A DNA stretch of 21,192 nt. Source: a virus. This document shows, piece after piece, positions 610 to 21,192 of the stretch. Location of the stretch: positions 1-21,192 of IMG/VR virus record IMGVR_UViG_3300028581_000286; one strand, given 5' to 3'. Both the position numbers and the translations under genes were made by a program. Positions within the stretch are counted from its first letter, which is position 1; every line of letters starts with the position of its first letter. The notes beneath the pieces are model-generated. The model was given only the letters and a program-made list of their open reading frames with translations. It made no database searches and had not been told where the DNA came from.

Positions 610-849
610 ATGAGCCTTTCAAATAACTTCCCGTCCATCAGACCAAGCCTACTCCTAGACTTTGCTAACACTGATGTTATCGGTACTATCTACAGACCTA
701 CTGAAGCAGTTGATGAAGAAGGTAATCCAGTTATGGAGGAGTTAACTGGGTATCATGTCAATATCCGAGCAGTAGCTGGTGAAGACACTACTGATATTGC
801 ACCATTCGCTGTAGTTCCTGCTAATCCTGTAAGAATCTGGGCTAGTTAA
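610..849 (+). CDS. Small tail-fibre-like protein
   Basis: A 79-residue protein. Residues 9-20 (SIRPSLLLDFAN) resemble the short segment that starts many phage fibre or tail proteins. The end, GYHVNIRAV followed by PANPVRIWAS, resembles a short phage tail protein whose C-terminus reads P-x-RVWA. AAGGT precedes the ATG at suitable spacing. Its last codons overlap by 8 bp the end of the convergent minus-strand gene at 842, with no terminator visible between them. A tail role is likely, but the exact function is unknown. Confidence 0.7.
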   Translation: MSLSNNFPSIRPSLLLDFANTDVIGTIYRPTEAVDEEGNPVMEELTGYHVNIRAVAGEDTTDIAPFAVVPANPVRIWAS

Positions 850-1276
850 CAAATAGTCTCTTTAAATGATTGCGGTGGATGCGTCCTCCAACGAACGAGT
901 TATAGTACTCATCAGGTTTTAACAATACGTTGTTGACAACCTGTTCTCTTAACTCGATGTAGGAGCATTCACCTTTTGAATAGCAATAGTGTAGTATCTC
1001 TCTCGTAAAGTTCTCACTACCAAGATCGATGACGTCCTGCTTCAACTCTTCATTGGATCCATAATAGGTCTTCCAATCTGAAGCAGTCTTGGACTTAATC
1101 TTTTTCTTCTTCTTCTCTCCGGATTTCAGAGTAACTGTTTTCGTCGAAGTACGGGAAAACTTGGCTAGCTTTTTGCCAATGTATTTATGTTGACTAGTCA
1201 GATTAACTATCAAATATACAAAACCCACACAATCTTCTGGTAATTCTTTTACCTCTTGTCCTTGATAAATCCACAT
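842..1276 (-). CDS. GIY-YIG-like nuclease (Seg/homing-type)
   Basis: Residues 17-36 hold GFVYLIVN...KYIGKK, which fits the Y-L-I and Y-I-G strands of a GIY-YIG nuclease core. A lysine-rich loop follows, then DWKTYYGSNEELKQDV and a C-terminal segment with YIELREQ, where the conserved glutamate of the fold could lie. The open frame extends to a GTG at 1285, but the ATG at 1276 (MWIYQGQEV) matches the usual start of this phage family, so I prefer it. The gene sits alone between the tail module and the nrd operon, a common site for free-standing homing-type genes. Whether it is an active endonuclease is unknown. Confidence 0.65.
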   Translation of the reverse strand: MWIYQGQEVKELPEDCVGFVYLIVNLTSQHKYIGKKLAKFSRTSTKTVTLKSGEKKKKKIKSKTASDWKTYYGSNEELKQDVIDLGSENFTREILHYCYSKGECSYIELREQVVNNVLLKPDEYYNSFVGGRIHRNHLKRLFVN

Positions 1277-1299
1277 AGTAAGCACCGAAAAGTTATAGT

Positions 1300-2863: not shown

Positions 2864-3964
2864 TTAAATTTTACAGGAATCGCAATCTTCTTCGTCATCA
2901 ATATTATCATCTTGAATATTATCACCATCTGAAGAAGACTCGCTTTTAACTTCACCAGCGCCATCATGTGTATTGTTGTAATAGAGTTGCTTGCCCCCGA
3001 ACTTATAGAAGGTGACAATATCACGAATAAGTTGAGACATTGGTACTTTTGATTCTTCAAAAAACTCTGGATTATATGAAGTGTTAACAGATATCCCTTG
3101 GTCAATATACTTTTGTAGAATAGCACAAATCTTTAGGTAACCATCCGGAGTCTTTTGATCCCATAATAGATCATATTGATTCTTGAGACGATGATAACCT
3201 GGAACAACCTGAGCACTCACACCATCTTTAGATTGCTTATAAGATACTAAAGCGCGAGGAGGTTCAATACCATTTGTACTATTCGAAATTTGCGCTGATG
3301 TTTCAGCAGGCATTAGCGCCATTAATGTTGAGTTACGAATACCAAACTCTTTAAGATCCTTGCGAAGTTGTTTCCAATCCATGCGTTCATTTGGTTTAAC
3401 TAACTCATCTACATCTCGCTTATATGTATCAATTGGCACAATTCCATGTCCATATTTTGTTTCCATTAACTTTGGAATAGCACCTTTTTCTTTTGCAAGA
3501 TCCACCGATGCTTTAATCAAGTAATATGACCACGCTTCAGCAAAGCGATCTACTTCAGCAAAGGCCGATTCATCATACTTTAAACCACGTTTAGCAAGGA
3601 AGTATGCAAGGTTAATAATACCTACACCAAGAGGCCGACGGTTCTTTGTACTTTGCTTTGCAGCAGGTACTGGATACCCTTGATAGTCAAGTAAGGCATC
3701 GAGAACTCGGACGGTGATTGAACAATATTTTTCAAAGTCGGAGGGTTCGTTAATGAGACCCCAGTTAATGGCCGACAAAGTACACAATGAGATTTCAGCT
3801 TCTTCATCATCTGCAGAATTTAAAGGTTTACAAGGAAGGTTAATCTCACAATTGTGAACTAATATTCCATTTGCATAAAAGTTTTCATTTTTATCAACAG
3901 TAATATCATATACGTCTTCACAATAATCTAGGTATTCAATTTTTAACATATTTTTTTCTTCCAT
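2864..3964 (-). CDS. nrdA: NrdA C-terminal piece with split-intein C-fragment
   Basis: A 366-residue fusion. Residues 1-38 are an intein C-fragment ending in block F (EDVYDITVDKNENFYANG) and block G (ILVHN). The C-extein starts at C39 (CEINLPCKPL) and covers the second part of NrdA. C61 (ISLCTLSA) corresponds to E. coli C462. NSTLMALMP and SNSTNGIEPPRA are conserved core motifs, and the tail ends DCDSCKI with the redox cysteine pair. C61 falls 23 residues after the radical cysteine in the spliced product, as in E. coli. Trans-splicing with the N-piece would give 764 residues (E. coli 761). The start could be M1 or M6 (position 3949); GGAAG is well placed for M6. Confidence 0.93.
   Translation of the reverse strand: MEEKNMLKIEYLDYCEDVYDITVDKNENFYANGILVHNCEINLPCKPLNSADDEEAEISLCTLSAINWGLINEPSDFEKYCSITVRVLDALLDYQGYPVPAAKQSTKNRRPLGVGIINLAYFLAKRGLKYDESAFAEVDRFAEAWSYYLIKASVDLAKEKGAIPKLMETKYGHGIVPIDTYKRDVDELVKPNERMDWKQLRKDLKEFGIRNSTLMALMPAETSAQISNSTNGIEPPRALVSYKQSKDGVSAQVVPGYHRLKNQYDLLWDQKTPDGYLKICAILQKYIDQGISVNTSYNPEFFEESKVPMSQLIRDIVTFYKFGGKQLYYNNTHDGAGEVKSESSSDGDNIQDDNIDDEEDCDSCKI
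3851..3964 (-). other. Split intein C-fragment of NrdA
   Basis: Residues 1-38 of the nrdA C-piece. Block F is visible around DITVDKNENFYANG and block G is ILVHN, followed by Cys+1. The terminal Asn38 and penultimate His37 are those needed for Asn cyclisation. The length is typical of C-fragments in canonically split inteins. Confidence 0.92.
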
Positions 3965-3965
3965 T

Positions 3966-4202
3966 TTACTTTATTTTACGCTTTCCTAAATTTGCTTTTC
4001 TTAAAAGTTCTCTATGTTCTGGACTACGAAAATGTGGCTTATATTCTAATCCTAATTCTTCTTTAAGAATATTAACAAAATTCATGTAATCACCATTAAA
4101 TCTCATTTTTGAAAACGATTTAGGAAAATATAATCCTATTTTTTTAGCTTCTTTAATCTCAGAACTATTTATAAAATGTGAAATTATATTACCTTTAATG
4201 CG
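3966..4202 (-). pseudogene. Decayed homing-endonuclease-like frame between the nrdA halves
   Basis: Between the two nrdA pieces a 78-codon frame is open without an obvious start. It follows a TGA at 4203-4205, overlaps the end of the IntN frame and stops 1 nt before the ATG of the C-piece. An internal ATG at 4106 would give 46 residues. The product is basic and protein-like (KEAKKIGLYFPKSFSKMRF, NFVNILKEELGLEY). Its end, HFRSPEHRELLRKANLGKRK, resembles the NUMOD3-type DNA-binding motif of phage homing endonucleases. I infer the 3' end of a lost endonuclease gene. It could instead be a short functional peptide. Confidence 0.5.
4166..4173 (-). promoter_or_regulatory. T4-type late promoter within the nrdA split
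   Basis: An exact TATAAATA on the minus strand, inside the gap between the nrdA pieces. It would give transcripts through the endonuclease-like remnant into the NrdA C-piece, nrdB and glutaredoxin. Free-standing homing endonuclease genes in T4 often have their own late promoter, so this may be inherited from the lost gene. The 8-bp motif can also occur by chance in AT-rich DNA. Confidence 0.5.
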
Positions 4203-5791
4203 TCAGTTTCAACAAGATCTTGCGCTTCAACATATCCACGATTCATGGTATATACCCTATGATCAGGAGTGCATACTATTGAATTCCCTTGATCATCAGT
4301 GATTCGCATTAATGTTGCGTTTTTACGAGTCATTGCTGAAGCTTTTACTTTTCTAAATTCGTCTTCGCCAGTTTTATTATTACGACTAAGTACTTTCATA
4401 TCTGTAGTAACATCTTTTAGCATTGCATCAGTAATTGAACCATCTCTTAATTCAACAGTAACAAATGTATCTCCCGTTAAACAACAGAGATTTGATTGAC
4501 GGATAGGTGCTACTTCAGGTATGAAAGAACCATGCTCATTTGCATGATCTACGTTCATTAGGTAAATTCTACCTGTATCTTTACGCTCAGTGATAAACAT
4601 TGAGAATACATCAATTGCAGGTAGACTTATCTTTCGGATAGTAGGATCTGCTTCATACATTTCATATAAGCGTTTAAACTCAGTTTGATTTGCATAGAAG
4701 TTTTCAAGCAATCCAGGAACATCGTTTGGAGAGAAGAGAGTAATATTACCTCCACTCAAAAGACGCTCATACATTGTTTTATTGAATTGAAACGCGTAGT
4801 CCATATGACGCACACGATTCTCTTCAGTACCTTTGTTATTCTTTAATACGATAAGACTTTCAAATTCTAAATGCCAGATTGGAATGTACACAGTAGCAGC
4901 ACCTCCGCGTACACCACCTTGACTACAAGATTTTACAGCAGCCTGAAAATACTTAAGAAAAGGAATAAGGCCAGTGTGAACGACGCTGCCGTCACCAATC
5001 CGAGAACCAAGAGCCCGGATAGCCCCGACTGCAATGCCGATGCCAGCCTTTTTAGAAATGTATCGCACCACTGAGGTAACGGTAGCGTTAATTGAATCCA
5101 ACGAATCGCCAGACTCAATGAGGACACAACTAGAAAACTGGCGCGTAGGGGTACGGACACCAGCCATAATAGGGGTTGGGAGAGAAACATAAAAGAGCGA
5201 GATAGCATCGTAGAATTCTTTAACATACTTTAATCGAGTTTCTTTTGGATATGATGAGAAGAGTGTAGCTGCAATCATGATATAAAGAACTTGAGGAGTC
5301 TCATAAGGCATCTTAGTCAAACGATCTTGAACTAAGTACTTACTACGAAGTTGCTCCATTCCAACATAAGTAAAGGTATCATCCCTCTCGTGTTTAATGT
5401 AGTTATTTAAACTAACGAATTCTTCTTCAGTATAGAGATCAAGAATTTCTGCATCATATACACCAGCTTTTACATTATGACGAACAATGTCAAGAAGAGG
5501 CCAGGGGTGATATGAACCATATACTTCTTTACGAAGTTTATAGTTAATAAGACGTGCTGCAACGTATTGATAGTTAGGAGTATATTCGGAGATTAACTCT
5601 GCTGATGATTTAATGAGTAGTTCATGAATATCATAGGCTTTAATGTTATTATATAGTTGTATGTTAGCTTTTAATTCAATTTCAGATATGGATACACCGG
5701 TAATTCCATCAGTTGCCCAATACAATACTTTATGCAACTTTTCAAGGTCAAACGCTTCGGTTTTTCCATTACGCTTTACAACATTAATCAT
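4184..5791 (-). CDS. nrdA: NrdA N-terminal piece with split-intein N-fragment
   Basis: A 535-residue fusion. Residues 1-436 are the N-extein: an ATP-cone-like start (MINVVKRNGKTEAFDLEKLH), then the ten-stranded barrel with C222 (TRQFSSCVLIE, E. coli C225), and finally QSNLC with C436, the thiyl-radical cysteine (E. coli C439). The intein starts at C437 (CLTGDTFVTV). It has block B at GNSIVCTPDHRVYT and ends after VETDALKVI at a TAA. Spliced to the C-piece it restores SNLC-CEINLP, the counterpart of E. coli SNLC-LEIALP. A sigma70-like promoter and GGAG lie upstream. By itself the N-piece lacks C462, the redox tail and much of the active site, so it should be inactive until spliced. Confidence 0.94.
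   Translation of the reverse strand: MINVVKRNGKTEAFDLEKLHKVLYWATDGITGVSISEIELKANIQLYNNIKAYDIHELLIKSSAELISEYTPNYQYVAARLINYKLRKEVYGSYHPWPLLDIVRHNVKAGVYDAEILDLYTEEEFVSLNNYIKHERDDTFTYVGMEQLRSKYLVQDRLTKMPYETPQVLYIMIAATLFSSYPKETRLKYVKEFYDAISLFYVSLPTPIMAGVRTPTRQFSSCVLIESGDSLDSINATVTSVVRYISKKAGIGIAVGAIRALGSRIGDGSVVHTGLIPFLKYFQAAVKSCSQGGVRGGAATVYIPIWHLEFESLIVLKNNKGTEENRVRHMDYAFQFNKTMYERLLSGGNITLFSPNDVPGLLENFYANQTEFKRLYEMYEADPTIRKISLPAIDVFSMFITERKDTGRIYLMNVDHANEHGSFIPEVAPIRQSNLCCLTGDTFVTVELRDGSITDAMLKDVTTDMKVLSRNNKTGEDEFRKVKASAMTRKNATLMRITDDQGNSIVCTPDHRVYTMNRGYVEAQDLVETDALKVI
4187..4483 (-). other. Split intein N-fragment of NrdA
   Basis: Ninety-nine residues (437-535 of the piece), beginning with nucleophile Cys1 in block A (CLTGDTFVTV). 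Block B has the conserved T-x-x-H (CTPDHRVYT), followed by NRGYVEAQDL. From memory it resembles the published metagenomic NrdA-2 split intein. The codons TGT TGT at 4481-4486 encode the radical cysteine (extein -1) and intein Cys1. Confidence 0.92.
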
Positions 5792-19023: not shown

Positions 19024-19400
19024 TATTTTGGGATTTTAATCCTAACATTGCGTTTAGACACCCAATTCTCTGCGCAGTTTTCAGCGTACTCTTGTGTCTT
19101 TTCTTTAATCTCACGTTCTTCAACACATTCATCACCACGATACATTGCAACCCAATATGCATCACCAACTGACATGAGTATAGCACTACGATTTGTTTCA
19201 TCGTTTGCATATTCAAAAAGTATCTTCCTTGGTTCTTTCTTTGTTAAAGACCAAGAGCCATCTTTCAAATCAGTCCATACTAAATCATCGCCTTCTTTCC
19301 AACCAGCTATTTCTAATAGATCTTCTGGAAAGGTAACCATAGCATCTCCAGTTTCTGGATCTTCTTCAACATTTAGTGTCCAACTCTTTTTATCTGTCAT
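19023..19400 (-). CDS. AbrB/SpoVT-like domain phage protein
   Basis: A 125-residue protein. Residues about 5-56 (SWTLNVEEDPETGDAMVTFP, LLEIAGWKEGDDLVW, GSWSLTKKE) have the layout of a swapped-hairpin AbrB domain, as in antitoxin-type DNA binders. The conserved pattern W-T-L-x-V-x-E-D-x-x-T-G-D with GW-x-EGD is common in marine T4-like phages. The C-terminal half is charged (EEREIKEKTQEYAENC). Its ATG overlaps the gp41 C-piece stop by 1 nt. A DNA-binding regulatory role is plausible but not shown. Confidence 0.75.
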   Translation of the reverse strand: MTDKKSWTLNVEEDPETGDAMVTFPEDLLEIAGWKEGDDLVWTDLKDGSWSLTKKEPRKILFEYANDETNRSAILMSVGDAYWVAMYRGDECVEEREIKEKTQEYAENCAENWVSKRNVRIKIPK

Positions 19401-19831
19401 TACATTTTAATCCCTGAAAAGTCCTGGCGTTCAGCTTTCATACGTCTACCAGAATCTGATTGGTCAAACAAAGGTGTGTCTTGAACTAATGTCTGTGCTG
19501 ATTGCTCAACATCATATAACTTCATTCGACTACGATCAACACCAATTACAAATCTCTTATACGTTGTAGGATCGTTATAACGATTCTTTAATTGTTTCAC
19601 CATGATTTGACCTAGTTTTTCTAAGTCTTCAGTTGATACAAGTGCAATCATTAAATCGGCAGTTGCAGGAAGACCAAAACTTTCACTCGTATCTTCCATT
19701 CCTACGTCGGTGTTTGAGTTGTGTGTGAGGATGTCATTGGCAAAAAACAAATGATTTCCGCTTACTTCAATATCTATTAAGTTGCGGGTTTCTTCAATAT
19801 CTTCTATTTCAACTATTTCATCATAATGCAT
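19400..19831 (-). CDS. 41: gp41 helicase C-terminal piece with split-intein C-fragment
   Basis: A 143-residue fusion. Residues 1-38 are the intein C-fragment (IDIEVSGNHLFFANDILTHN at its end), nearly the published gp41-1 C-fragment as I recall it, with Ser39 as +1. The extein (39-143) covers the last part of a T4 gp41-type DnaB helicase: SFGLPATADLMIALVSTEDL and QLKNRYNDPTTYKRFVIGVD. It starts 38 nt after the stop of the middle piece, with GGAG upstream. It must be joined to the middle piece to complete the helicase that unwinds DNA at the replication fork. Confidence 0.93.
   Translation of the reverse strand: MHYDEIVEIEDIEETRNLIDIEVSGNHLFFANDILTHNSNTDVGMEDTSESFGLPATADLMIALVSTEDLEKLGQIMVKQLKNRYNDPTTYKRFVIGVDRSRMKLYDVEQSAQTLVQDTPLFDQSDSGRRMKAERQDFSGIKM
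19718..19831 (-). other. Split intein C-fragment, second gp41 intein
   Basis: Thirty-eight residues with block F (LIDIEVSGNHLFFAND) and block G (ILTHN), then Ser+1. His37 and Asn38 are present. Confidence 0.93.
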
Positions 19832-19869
19832 TAATTTTTACTCCGTATTTTGGATGTGGTTTGCTATAA

Positions 19870-21021
19870 TCATTTCTGCGCATATATGTCATTATACTTT
19901 ACAATTAATTTATCTCCTACCTTTAACCCAAAATTAATAGACTTTTCATGTCCTTCATATGTTGGGAATAGATGGTCTGATGAACAATATATAACTTTAC
20001 CAGATTTAGTTTTAATCCTATAAGTTTTTTTATACTGAACCGGAAACACCGTTTCAACTGTATTCCAACCATTGCTAGAAAGAATTTCATCACCAACTAA
20101 AACATCTTTTAAGAATTTGTTGCCTTCCTTTCCAATAACCTCAGTAAAAGGATCTAAACAAAAACCAGATCTTGTAGTTTGTGTTGCACTTACAATAGGT
20201 ACATTAAACTCAACTGCAAGACCACGAATTTCCTCGGCAATAGATTTAATATATGTATAGGAATTAATAGATCCTCCCATACCTTTCATACGAGAAGATG
20301 AACAGATGTTTAAGTAATCGATAAAGATAACATCCGGAGCAAAGTTCTTCTTCAATTTCAACTCATTTAAGAGTGCTCGAAAGTGACCAACGTGAGCAGC
20401 ACCAGTTGGATACTCTTTAATAATTAACTTACCAATGTTCTTTGCAGCAATCTTTGCAATCTTTGTTTCATACATATCTTTTGAAAGATTTTCCAATTGG
20501 TCTACTGGCAAGTTCATTAGGTTAGCATCAATACGTTCTGCAATTCTTTCCTCGGCCATTTCCATTGTGATATAGAGAACGTTCTTTCCTTGAGTTAAAG
20601 ATGCTGCACCACAATGACACATGAAGAGTGATTTACCAACACCAGTGTTGTGAGAAGAAATTCCATTTGTATAATATCTATGATTTTCATGCTCAACGTT
20701 TATATCAACGATAGGAATAGATTTTCCAGTAGTAATTACTTCACCTTTTTTATATCCTGTTTTTGTTAGGATATTAATTAGACCACGCCCAACTAACTGA
20801 CTAGCAGAAATCCATCCTATGTTTGTTTCAAACAAATGATCTGCATTACAGGAAACAGTTTCAAGTGTGTTTTCCATTTGAAGCACATGCTCATCATATA
20901 TACCTTTATTAATAAAATAATTAACAGGAACGTATCCATCTGGAGAATCAACTTCAACTTCATAACCATTTTCTAATAGCGTTTGTATTTCGGCAATAGG
21001 TATTTCTTTTTCATTCCACAT
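19870..21021 (-). CDS. 41: gp41 helicase middle piece flanked by two split-intein fragments
   Basis: A 383-residue three-part protein. Residues 1-125 are a large intein C-fragment (block B SCNADHLFE, block F IPIVDINVEHENHRYYTNG, block G ISSHN). Residues 126-287 are helicase: Walker A T126-G-V-G-K130-S131, KNVLYITMEMAEE, Walker B with D235 (VIFIDYLNI), ending ATQTTRSGF. Residues 288-383 are the N-fragment of a second intein (CLDPFTEVIG; block B CSSDHLFPTY). The helicase part resembles T4 gp41 closely (GKSL, CHC, TMEMAEE, LLNELKLKKNF). The gp41 N-terminal piece and its intein N-fragment must lie beyond 21192. AAGGA precedes the ATG, and the gene has its own promoter. Confidence 0.94.
   Translation of the reverse strand: MWNEKEIPIAEIQTLLENGYEVEVDSPDGYVPVNYFINKGIYDEHVLQMENTLETVSCNADHLFETNIGWISASQLVGRGLINILTKTGYKKGEVITTGKSIPIVDINVEHENHRYYTNGISSHNTGVGKSLFMCHCGAASLTQGKNVLYITMEMAEERIAERIDANLMNLPVDQLENLSKDMYETKIAKIAAKNIGKLIIKEYPTGAAHVGHFRALLNELKLKKNFAPDVIFIDYLNICSSSRMKGMGGSINSYTYIKSIAEEIRGLAVEFNVPIVSATQTTRSGFCLDPFTEVIGKEGNKFLKDVLVGDEILSSNGWNTVETVFPVQYKKTYRIKTKSGKVIYCSSDHLFPTYEGHEKSINFGLKVGDKLIVKYNDIYAQK
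19873..20160 (-). other. Split intein N-fragment, second gp41 intein
   Basis: Ninety-six residues from Cys1 (CLDPFTEVIG) through block B (CSSDHLFPTYEG) to LKVGDKLIVKYNDIYAQK. It pairs with the C-fragment encoded 38 nt downstream. It is similar in layout to the metagenomic gp41-1 split intein. Confidence 0.93.
20647..21021 (-). other. Large split intein C-fragment at the gp41 P-loop
   Basis: One hundred and twenty-five residues containing blocks B, F and G but lacking the Cys1 block A. The split is therefore close to the intein N-terminus, an atypical site like that of the AceL-TerL and VidaL metagenomic inteins. Thr126 is the +1 residue and is also part of the helicase Walker A. Confidence 0.88.
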
Positions 21022-21036
21022 TAAAACATCCTTTTG

Positions 21037-21044
21037 TATAAATA
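21037..21044 (+). promoter_or_regulatory. T4-type late promoter for the endonuclease-like gene
   Basis: Exact TATAAATA on the plus strand, 71 nt upstream of the ATG at 21116, in a non-coding divergent gap. Confidence 0.5.
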
Positions 21045-21049
21045 TAATT

Positions 21050-21080
21050 GTTGATCGCGGATCGCCACAATCCCATCAAC
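21050..21080. repeat. Imperfect hairpin in the divergent gap
   Basis: GTTGAT/ATCAAC outer stem and GGAT/ATCC inner stem around a 7-nt loop. It lies in the predicted leaders of both divergent transcripts: downstream of the late promoter on the plus strand and of the sigma70-like promoter on the minus strand. Role unknown. Confidence 0.45.
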
Positions 21081-21087
21081 TCTATCC

Positions 21088-21116
21088 ATTATAACATAAC
21101 TTTTGGAGAAAGTAAA
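21088..21116 (-). promoter_or_regulatory. Sigma70-like promoter for the gp41 middle piece
   Basis: -35 TTTACT (21111-21116), 17-bp spacer, -10 TATAAT (21088-21093). The -35 touches the first base of the divergent endonuclease-like ATG. It would let the helicase middle piece be expressed independently of gp41-N. Confidence 0.6.
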
Positions 21117-21192
21117 TGGACAGCATTACTATTTATTCTAATCTTTGCAAATCACATAAGTACTTAAAAGAATCTTATGGTCCTGGCTCAGG
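21116..21192 (+). CDS. Probable HNH homing endonuclease, N-terminal end (partial)
   Basis: The start of a frame cut by the window end: 25 complete codons, MDSITIYSNLCKSHKYL followed by KESYGPGS. GGAG lies 8 nt before the ATG. The pattern N-L-C-x-S-x-K-Y-L-K...G-x-G is how many phage HNH endonucleases begin, just before their HH-I-x-P catalytic segment, which would lie outside the window. It is on the opposite strand to gp41, exactly where gp41 is split at its P-loop, the usual place for an endonuclease linked to a split intein. Confidence 0.6.
   Translation, partial: MDSITIYSNLCKSHKYLKESYGPGS

Follow-up and report, generated by a model that had tools for sequence, protein, structure and literature searches.

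The window analysed here is the whole of the IMG/VR virus record IMGVR_UViG_3300028581_000286 (21192 bases), and near one end it carries pieces of the gene for the replicative phage helicase gp41, each bounded by intein fragments. Two pieces lie in the window, and these and all of their parts are encoded on the minus strand. The open reading frame (ORF) of the middle piece, gp41-mid (19870-21021, 383 residues), is a chimera of an intein C-fragment (IntC, residues 1-125), a stretch of helicase (residues 126-287) and an intein N-fragment (IntN, residues 288-383), and is preceded on the same strand by AAGGA, a sequence resembling a ribosome-binding site (21029-21033). The IntC belongs to an intein at the P-loop site (intein 1; 20647-21021, 125 residues); it matches the VidaL intein (PDB 6vgv, E 6e-12), is conserved in nine aligned mid pieces and terminates in PIVDINVEHENHRYYTNGISSHN (..TNGISSHN), with HN preceding Thr+1. 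The middle helicase extein runs from TGVGKS to TRSGF (20161-20646, 162 residues) and is similar to Pfam DnaB_C (5e-14) and to T4 gp41 structures (5e-40). At the TRSGF site follows the IntN of a second intein (intein 2; 19873-20160, 96 residues), which begins with Cys1 (CLDPFTEV..) and matches the gp41-1 intein (6qaz, E 3e-16).

A spacer of 38 bp (19832-19869), which in contrast to most relatives is without an endonuclease gene, separates gp41-mid from the ORF of the last piece, gp41-C (19400-19831, 143 residues; IntC 1-38, helicase 39-143, SNTDVGMEDTSESFGLPATADL..). The IntC of intein 2 at the start of gp41-C (19718-19831, 38 residues) matches the gp41-1 intein (E 7e-9) and, below the curated cut-off, Pfam Intein_splicing (6e-4). 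It terminates in SGNHLFFANDILTHN (..FANDILTHN) with HN before Ser+1, after which the helicase resumes as SNTDVGMEDTSESFGLP; this C-terminal helicase part (19403-19717, 105 residues) matches the DnaB-like helicase family phrog_19 (1.6e-21) and the T4 gp41 structure 8dtp (1e-15).

Searched as whole chains against the PDB, gp41-mid matched T4 gp41 (E 5e-40), the gp41-1 intein (3e-16) and the VidaL intein (4e-12), all far above chance, and gp41-C matched T4 gp41 (1e-15) and gp41-1 (7e-9). The same three proteins were recovered for the single mid chain by Foldseek with an AlphaFold model of medium confidence (mean predicted local distance difference test score 64), which served for fold matching only. 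The helicase parts have the RecA-like core with Walker A and the family-wide similarity of T4 gp41 and DnaB-type helicases. Intein 2 shares with the gp41-1 intein its homology, the gp41 host, the insertion site (a TRSG[YF]/S junction), Cys1, HN before Ser+1 and the canonical split, and intein 1 has an IntC that is homologous to VidaL and ends in HN. A sequence-only reading of the window had described the mid piece as starting with an IntC at the P-loop and ending with an unrelated IntN after TRSGF, and the VidaL-like and gp41-1-like matches bear this out.

The first piece, gp41-N, lies outside the window, since only 171 bases of contig remain upstream of gp41-mid. These bases include the start of an HNH endonuclease gene on the plus strand, cut by the contig end (21116-21192, 77 bases, the first 25 codons, MDSITIYSNLCKSHKYLKESYGPGS..), and MDSITIYSNLCKSHKYLKESYGPGS resembles the starts of HNH endonuclease genes in related contigs (numbered with the prefix L), for example MSIIYSTIYHNLCESKKYRIVEYVPGSGLHKHHIVPKHMGG in L006. 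In L003, L004, L005 and L006, an HNH gene on the opposite strand separates gp41-N from an IntC-led gp41-mid, and gp41-N ends in ..LAG-CVHP(E/D)T.., a few further residues and a stop. Locus counts from our searches are lower bounds and not frequencies: an opposite-strand ORF lay between the N and mid pieces at at least 48 distinct loci, with a clear HHIxPK motif in 39 of the 48 and mostly close variants of it in the other 9. At least 56 distinct gp41-N C-termini in relatives carried an IntN of 14-23 residues (mode 16) starting with Cys; where it has 14 residues (L086, L096, L131, L151, L162 and L192), the stop codon follows immediately. By comparison with these relatives, the window phage is predicted to have a gp41-N with a short IntN.

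All three pieces occur in order in at least four contigs; the second break falls at TR(S/A)GY/S in L115, L118 and L165 and at DTSE/SFGLP in L008. A double-ended mid piece on a contig that then runs out was found, besides the window, in L116, L125 and L130 (TRSG site) and in L123 and L158 (DTSE site). Among the aligned mid pieces, that of L118 is nearest to the one in the window (73% identity). Other contigs combine an uncut P-loop intein with a split second intein (L002, L098, L105, L112 and L181), are split at the second site only (L011, L046, L204, L205 and L263) or are split at the P-loop only. With the inteins removed in silico, the extein chains from the four complete loci, and from the window's mid and C pieces, aligned to three intact gp41 proteins with gap-free junctions. 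Catalytic residues, whose presence at each junction the sequence-only reading had noted, were conserved, namely Cys1, the block-B His, a C-terminal HN (KN where the site is DTSE) and Thr or Ser at +1. Its expectation of an upstream gp41-N with a short IntN was confirmed in relatives, by the 56 termini and the four full loci, while the window's own copy falls beyond the contig. An endonuclease gene is present at the TRSGF break in L115, L165, L125 and L130 and absent from it in the window. In one further contig, L191, gp41 is split at the P-loop (2-754 and 1405-2546); the extein stretch KGGLPNKTLNIALAG is duplicated ahead of the IntN and the mid piece contains a frame break, which may reflect decay of this copy or a fault of assembly.

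We propose, with a probability of roughly 0.87, that gp41 of the window phage, a T4-like phage, is made as three proteins joined by two different split inteins, the splicing being proposed from sequence. The gp41-N piece beyond the contig would terminate as ..ALAG-CVHP(E/D)T.., its IntN having about 16 residues. Intein 1, of the VidaL family and split very early, would connect N and mid within the Walker A loop. Intein 2, of the gp41-1 family and canonically split, would join mid to C, and both reactions would be needed for one gapless helicase chain. Since the first break falls inside Walker A (ALAG/TGVGKS), pieces that are not spliced would be expected to lack an ATPase site, and the helicase thus probably needs both splicing reactions. 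We infer in this model the splicing, the orthogonality of the inteins and the N piece of the window phage. The inteins gp41-1 and VidaL are well-characterised tools. Their splicing is reported to be fast, with half-lives of 5 s and about 1 min, respectively (PMC13014065).

Several points weigh against this proposal. An exact 24-base search at the contig end gave no overlapping viral contigs, and the phage's own gp41-N was not seen. The inteins of the window are relatives of assayed ones, the IntN of intein 2 (IntN2) and L115's gp41-1-type IntN sharing 49% identity, and because they are only related to tested inteins we infer their activity. Purifying selection was measured in relatives, and the values for the window and L118 are near saturation. 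Finally, the frame break and duplication in L191 indicate that not every copy is healthy.

The pieces might instead assemble non-covalently into a helicase, with the intein fragments as relics. A few phage enzymes that are split, NrdA of Aeromonas phage Aeh1 among them, reportedly act as separate chains, which counts for such an assembly, and the splicing of the gp41 pieces is itself a proposal from sequence. However, non-covalent assembly would burden the nucleotide-binding loop, inside which the first break falls, with a domain of 125 residues, and the residues of the inteins as well as the two junctions show conservation and purifying selection. Ratios of nonsynonymous to synonymous substitution (dN/dS) were 0.02-0.37 over all segments compared in close relatives, and the IntN protein of intein 1 (IntN1) was identical in close relatives despite synonymous divergences (dS) of 0.29-0.77. 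We consider this alternative improbable. Less probable still is that another part of the genome holds an intact gp41 which does the work, the split pieces being a decaying copy. The window is only a fragment of a genome, which leaves room for such a copy, but no second, uninterrupted gp41, the observation that the sequence-only reading had named as contrary to a gp41 in three pieces, was found in the records of 10 relatives (among them two-piece ones of 146, 107 and 92 kb and a three-piece one of 43 kb), and dN/dS in relatives is low. An assembly or sequencing artefact, such as a frameshift or a chimaera, might be suspected in a metagenomic contig terminating at the locus, but it is contradicted by independent contigs, ten of which have the same architecture with proper starts, stops and intein ends, and we regard it as highly unlikely. 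Equally little credence is due to a gp41-mid that mainly cyclises, its own IntC reacting with its own IntN to give a circular product: laboratory cyclisation of proteins by split inteins does use the order IntC-extein-IntN (PMC7765530), but judging from the alignment to VidaL and gp41-1 the two fragments come from different inteins, overlap in the region that they supply and should form no single domain.

For double trans-splicing as proposed here, matching fragments on gp41-mid would close a ring and a mismatch between the fragments is therefore required. The split geometry differs between the inteins, with an IntN of about 16 residues (from relatives) and an IntC of 125 in intein 1, and an IntN of 96 and an IntC of 38 in intein 2. 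Because the IntC of intein 1 (IntC1) already holds the middle of the fold that IntN2 supplies, these two cannot complement each other as one domain. Inteins 1 and 2 would accordingly differ in a way that makes them orthogonal by geometry, as their alignment to VidaL and gp41-1 suggests, and ring closure is most likely avoided through the different split places together with sequence differences. The +1 residues also differ, being Thr at the P-loop, Ser at TRSGF and Cys in a third split intein of the window, in NrdA. IntN2 is 29% identical to the NrdA IntN, the IntC of intein 2 (IntC2) is 39% identical to the NrdA IntC, and the last 38 residues of IntC1 are 30% identical to IntC2. The inteins gp41-1, gp41-8, NrdJ-1 and IMPDH-1 have been reported to be mutually orthogonal (PMC11766414). 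Net charge was rejected as a basis of orthogonality, since it is positive for IntN1 (family consensus) as well as for IntN2 and negative for either IntC, which does not separate inteins 1 and 2.

On the proposed model the arrangement arose as split inteins with free-standing homing endonucleases invaded two sites of gp41, and the window phage has lost the endonuclease at the second site. Between L115 and L003, dS was 0.04 in the P-loop IntC (4% of synonymous sites) and 1.2 in the adjoining helicase, so the intein region has moved recently between distant helicases; by this measure of divergence the inteins are younger than the surrounding helicase. In a tree of 225 distinct helicase cores the three-piece genes were scattered, 9 cases needing 9 changes, and the cores nearest to those of the window and of L118 were uninterrupted at both sites. 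This scatter fits repeated invasion of both sites by mobile elements, although the tree alone is silent on the number of invasions because the two sites can be gained and lost separately.

Phage genes fractured by split inteins, each locus being in two pieces that flank a free-standing homing endonuclease gene, were reportedly described by Dassa et al. in 2009, and both gp41 and NrdA are known examples of fractured genes. The gp41 genes described here likewise are replication genes broken by a split intein, in relatives with an endonuclease between the pieces, and differ in that gp41 is in three pieces with two types of split. Intein fragments at the break and contiguous exteins were found at the TRSGF site in the window and at both sites in the four complete relatives; a fractured gene is broken in two and gp41 here in three, a difference of degree. 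From other gp41-1-type loci the window differs in its IntN, at 49% identity to that of L115, and in the absence of an endonuclease between the pieces. Shigella phage ESh36 (ON528746, a T4-like isolate whose record is flagged UNVERIFIED; L278, 1382-4362) has a T4-type gp41 that is interrupted by a split intein and whose pieces flank an endonuclease-like ORF, but there are only two of them, divided at a DIAE/S site that corresponds to the DTSE/S site of L008, and no P-loop intein. Intein 1 resembles VidaL (PDB 6vgv/6vgw, IntN of 16 residues) in the match of its IntC, in its fold match and in the early split after about 16 residues (about 14-18) in relatives; it differs in its host site, the gp41 P-loop with Thr+1. 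An IntN of 15 residues has been called record-short (PMC13014065); the 14-residue IntN of some relatives is one residue under this and, if active, would shorten the known natural IntN.

Engineered three-fragment assembly, for example of dystrophin (PMC11271493), has the same N-IntN / IntC-M-IntN / IntC-C design, in versions with gp41-1 or VidaL, but is man-made whereas the gp41 arrangement is natural. In the literature searched, we found no published natural three-piece split-intein protein and no protein needing two natural split inteins, and as far as this literature shows a natural protein with such a need and a doubly reactive middle piece is undescribed. This suggests that evolution reached the three-part assembly design of the engineers. 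The locus would be a natural source of intein pairs that are obliged to tolerate each other in one chain, and makes it testable whether selfish inteins accumulate in one essential gene without cross-reaction. A search of 50,697 phage isolate records with the P-loop IntC gave 158 matches, all below 60% identity, and none of the best 20 of the 158 was in gp41. Relatives of the P-loop intein among phage records (H42-H60) were located in UvsX/RecA of Pseudomonas phages (PA5oct group) and in the terminase of Salmonella and Klebsiella phages.

The stretch that separates gp41-mid from the HNH gene contains a conserved, covarying hairpin (21049-21083, minus strand; E 6e-7 with model R1, in which the window sequence is included). 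Hairpins of this type, 32-38 nt long with the pattern AGAG(N5)..GYGA(N5')CA, were found at some two dozen different loci, placed between gp41-mid and the HNH gene or in the corresponding position, among them the window, L118, L087, L119, L129, L139, L160, L161, L166, L172, L176, L177, L183, L194 and L198; in L140 and L254 the same hairpin precedes GIY-YIG-like genes elsewhere. An alignment of 21 sequences showed compensation in both stems, with 99.5% of pairs kept and 57 double changes, and the covariation was 0.76, compared with 0.23 for shuffles and no more than 0.11 on sliding. As the outer stem was the collection criterion, the inner stem alone (98.8% paired, double changes in 3 of 4 pairs) is largely independent evidence. 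The functional strand of the hairpin is tentative, since wobble pairs are few and the collecting search favoured one strand. An Rfam scan of 20950-21192 matched no family.

Beside the hairpin, TATAAATA (21037-21044, plus strand) is a candidate T4-late-type promoter element leading into the HNH gene, although chance matches to it are common in the window. In relatives it is mostly 4 bases from the hairpin, with the endonuclease start codon mostly 25-35 bases away on the other side, and from these positions a late transcript of the endonuclease would begin about at the hairpin. The presence of the hairpin at endonuclease genes elsewhere suggests an element of the endonuclease that travelled with it; control elements carried along with an endonuclease were reportedly noted by Dassa et al. 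in 2009. Upstream of gp41-mid is a sigma-70-like promoter, TTTACT-17-TATAAT (21088-21116, minus strand), of a kind equally frequent by chance, and TATAAT or TAGAAT is found at a similar place in several relatives. With a promoter and the hairpin, both supposedly brought by the endonuclease gene, in front of gp41-mid, the three helicase pieces might come from separately controlled transcripts, and active helicase would then appear only after all three had been made and ligated, pacing the phage; we think this extension of the model unlikely.

The third split intein, in NrdA, comprises an IntN at the end of NrdA-N (4187-4483, minus strand, 99 residues) and an IntC at the start of NrdA-C with HN before Cys+1 (3851-3964, minus strand), both matching Pfam Intein_splicing below its curated cut-off (5e-6 and 3.5e-7, respectively). 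Between NrdA-N and NrdA-C a 46-codon ORF (3966-4106, minus strand) ends in SPEHRELLRKANLGKRKIK and resembles an endonuclease remnant, and TATAAATA occurs again just upstream of it (4166-4173, minus strand). Near the ribonucleotide reductase genes there is also an ORF for a SegE-type GIY-YIG endonuclease (842-1285, minus strand; Pfam PF19835, 2e-32).
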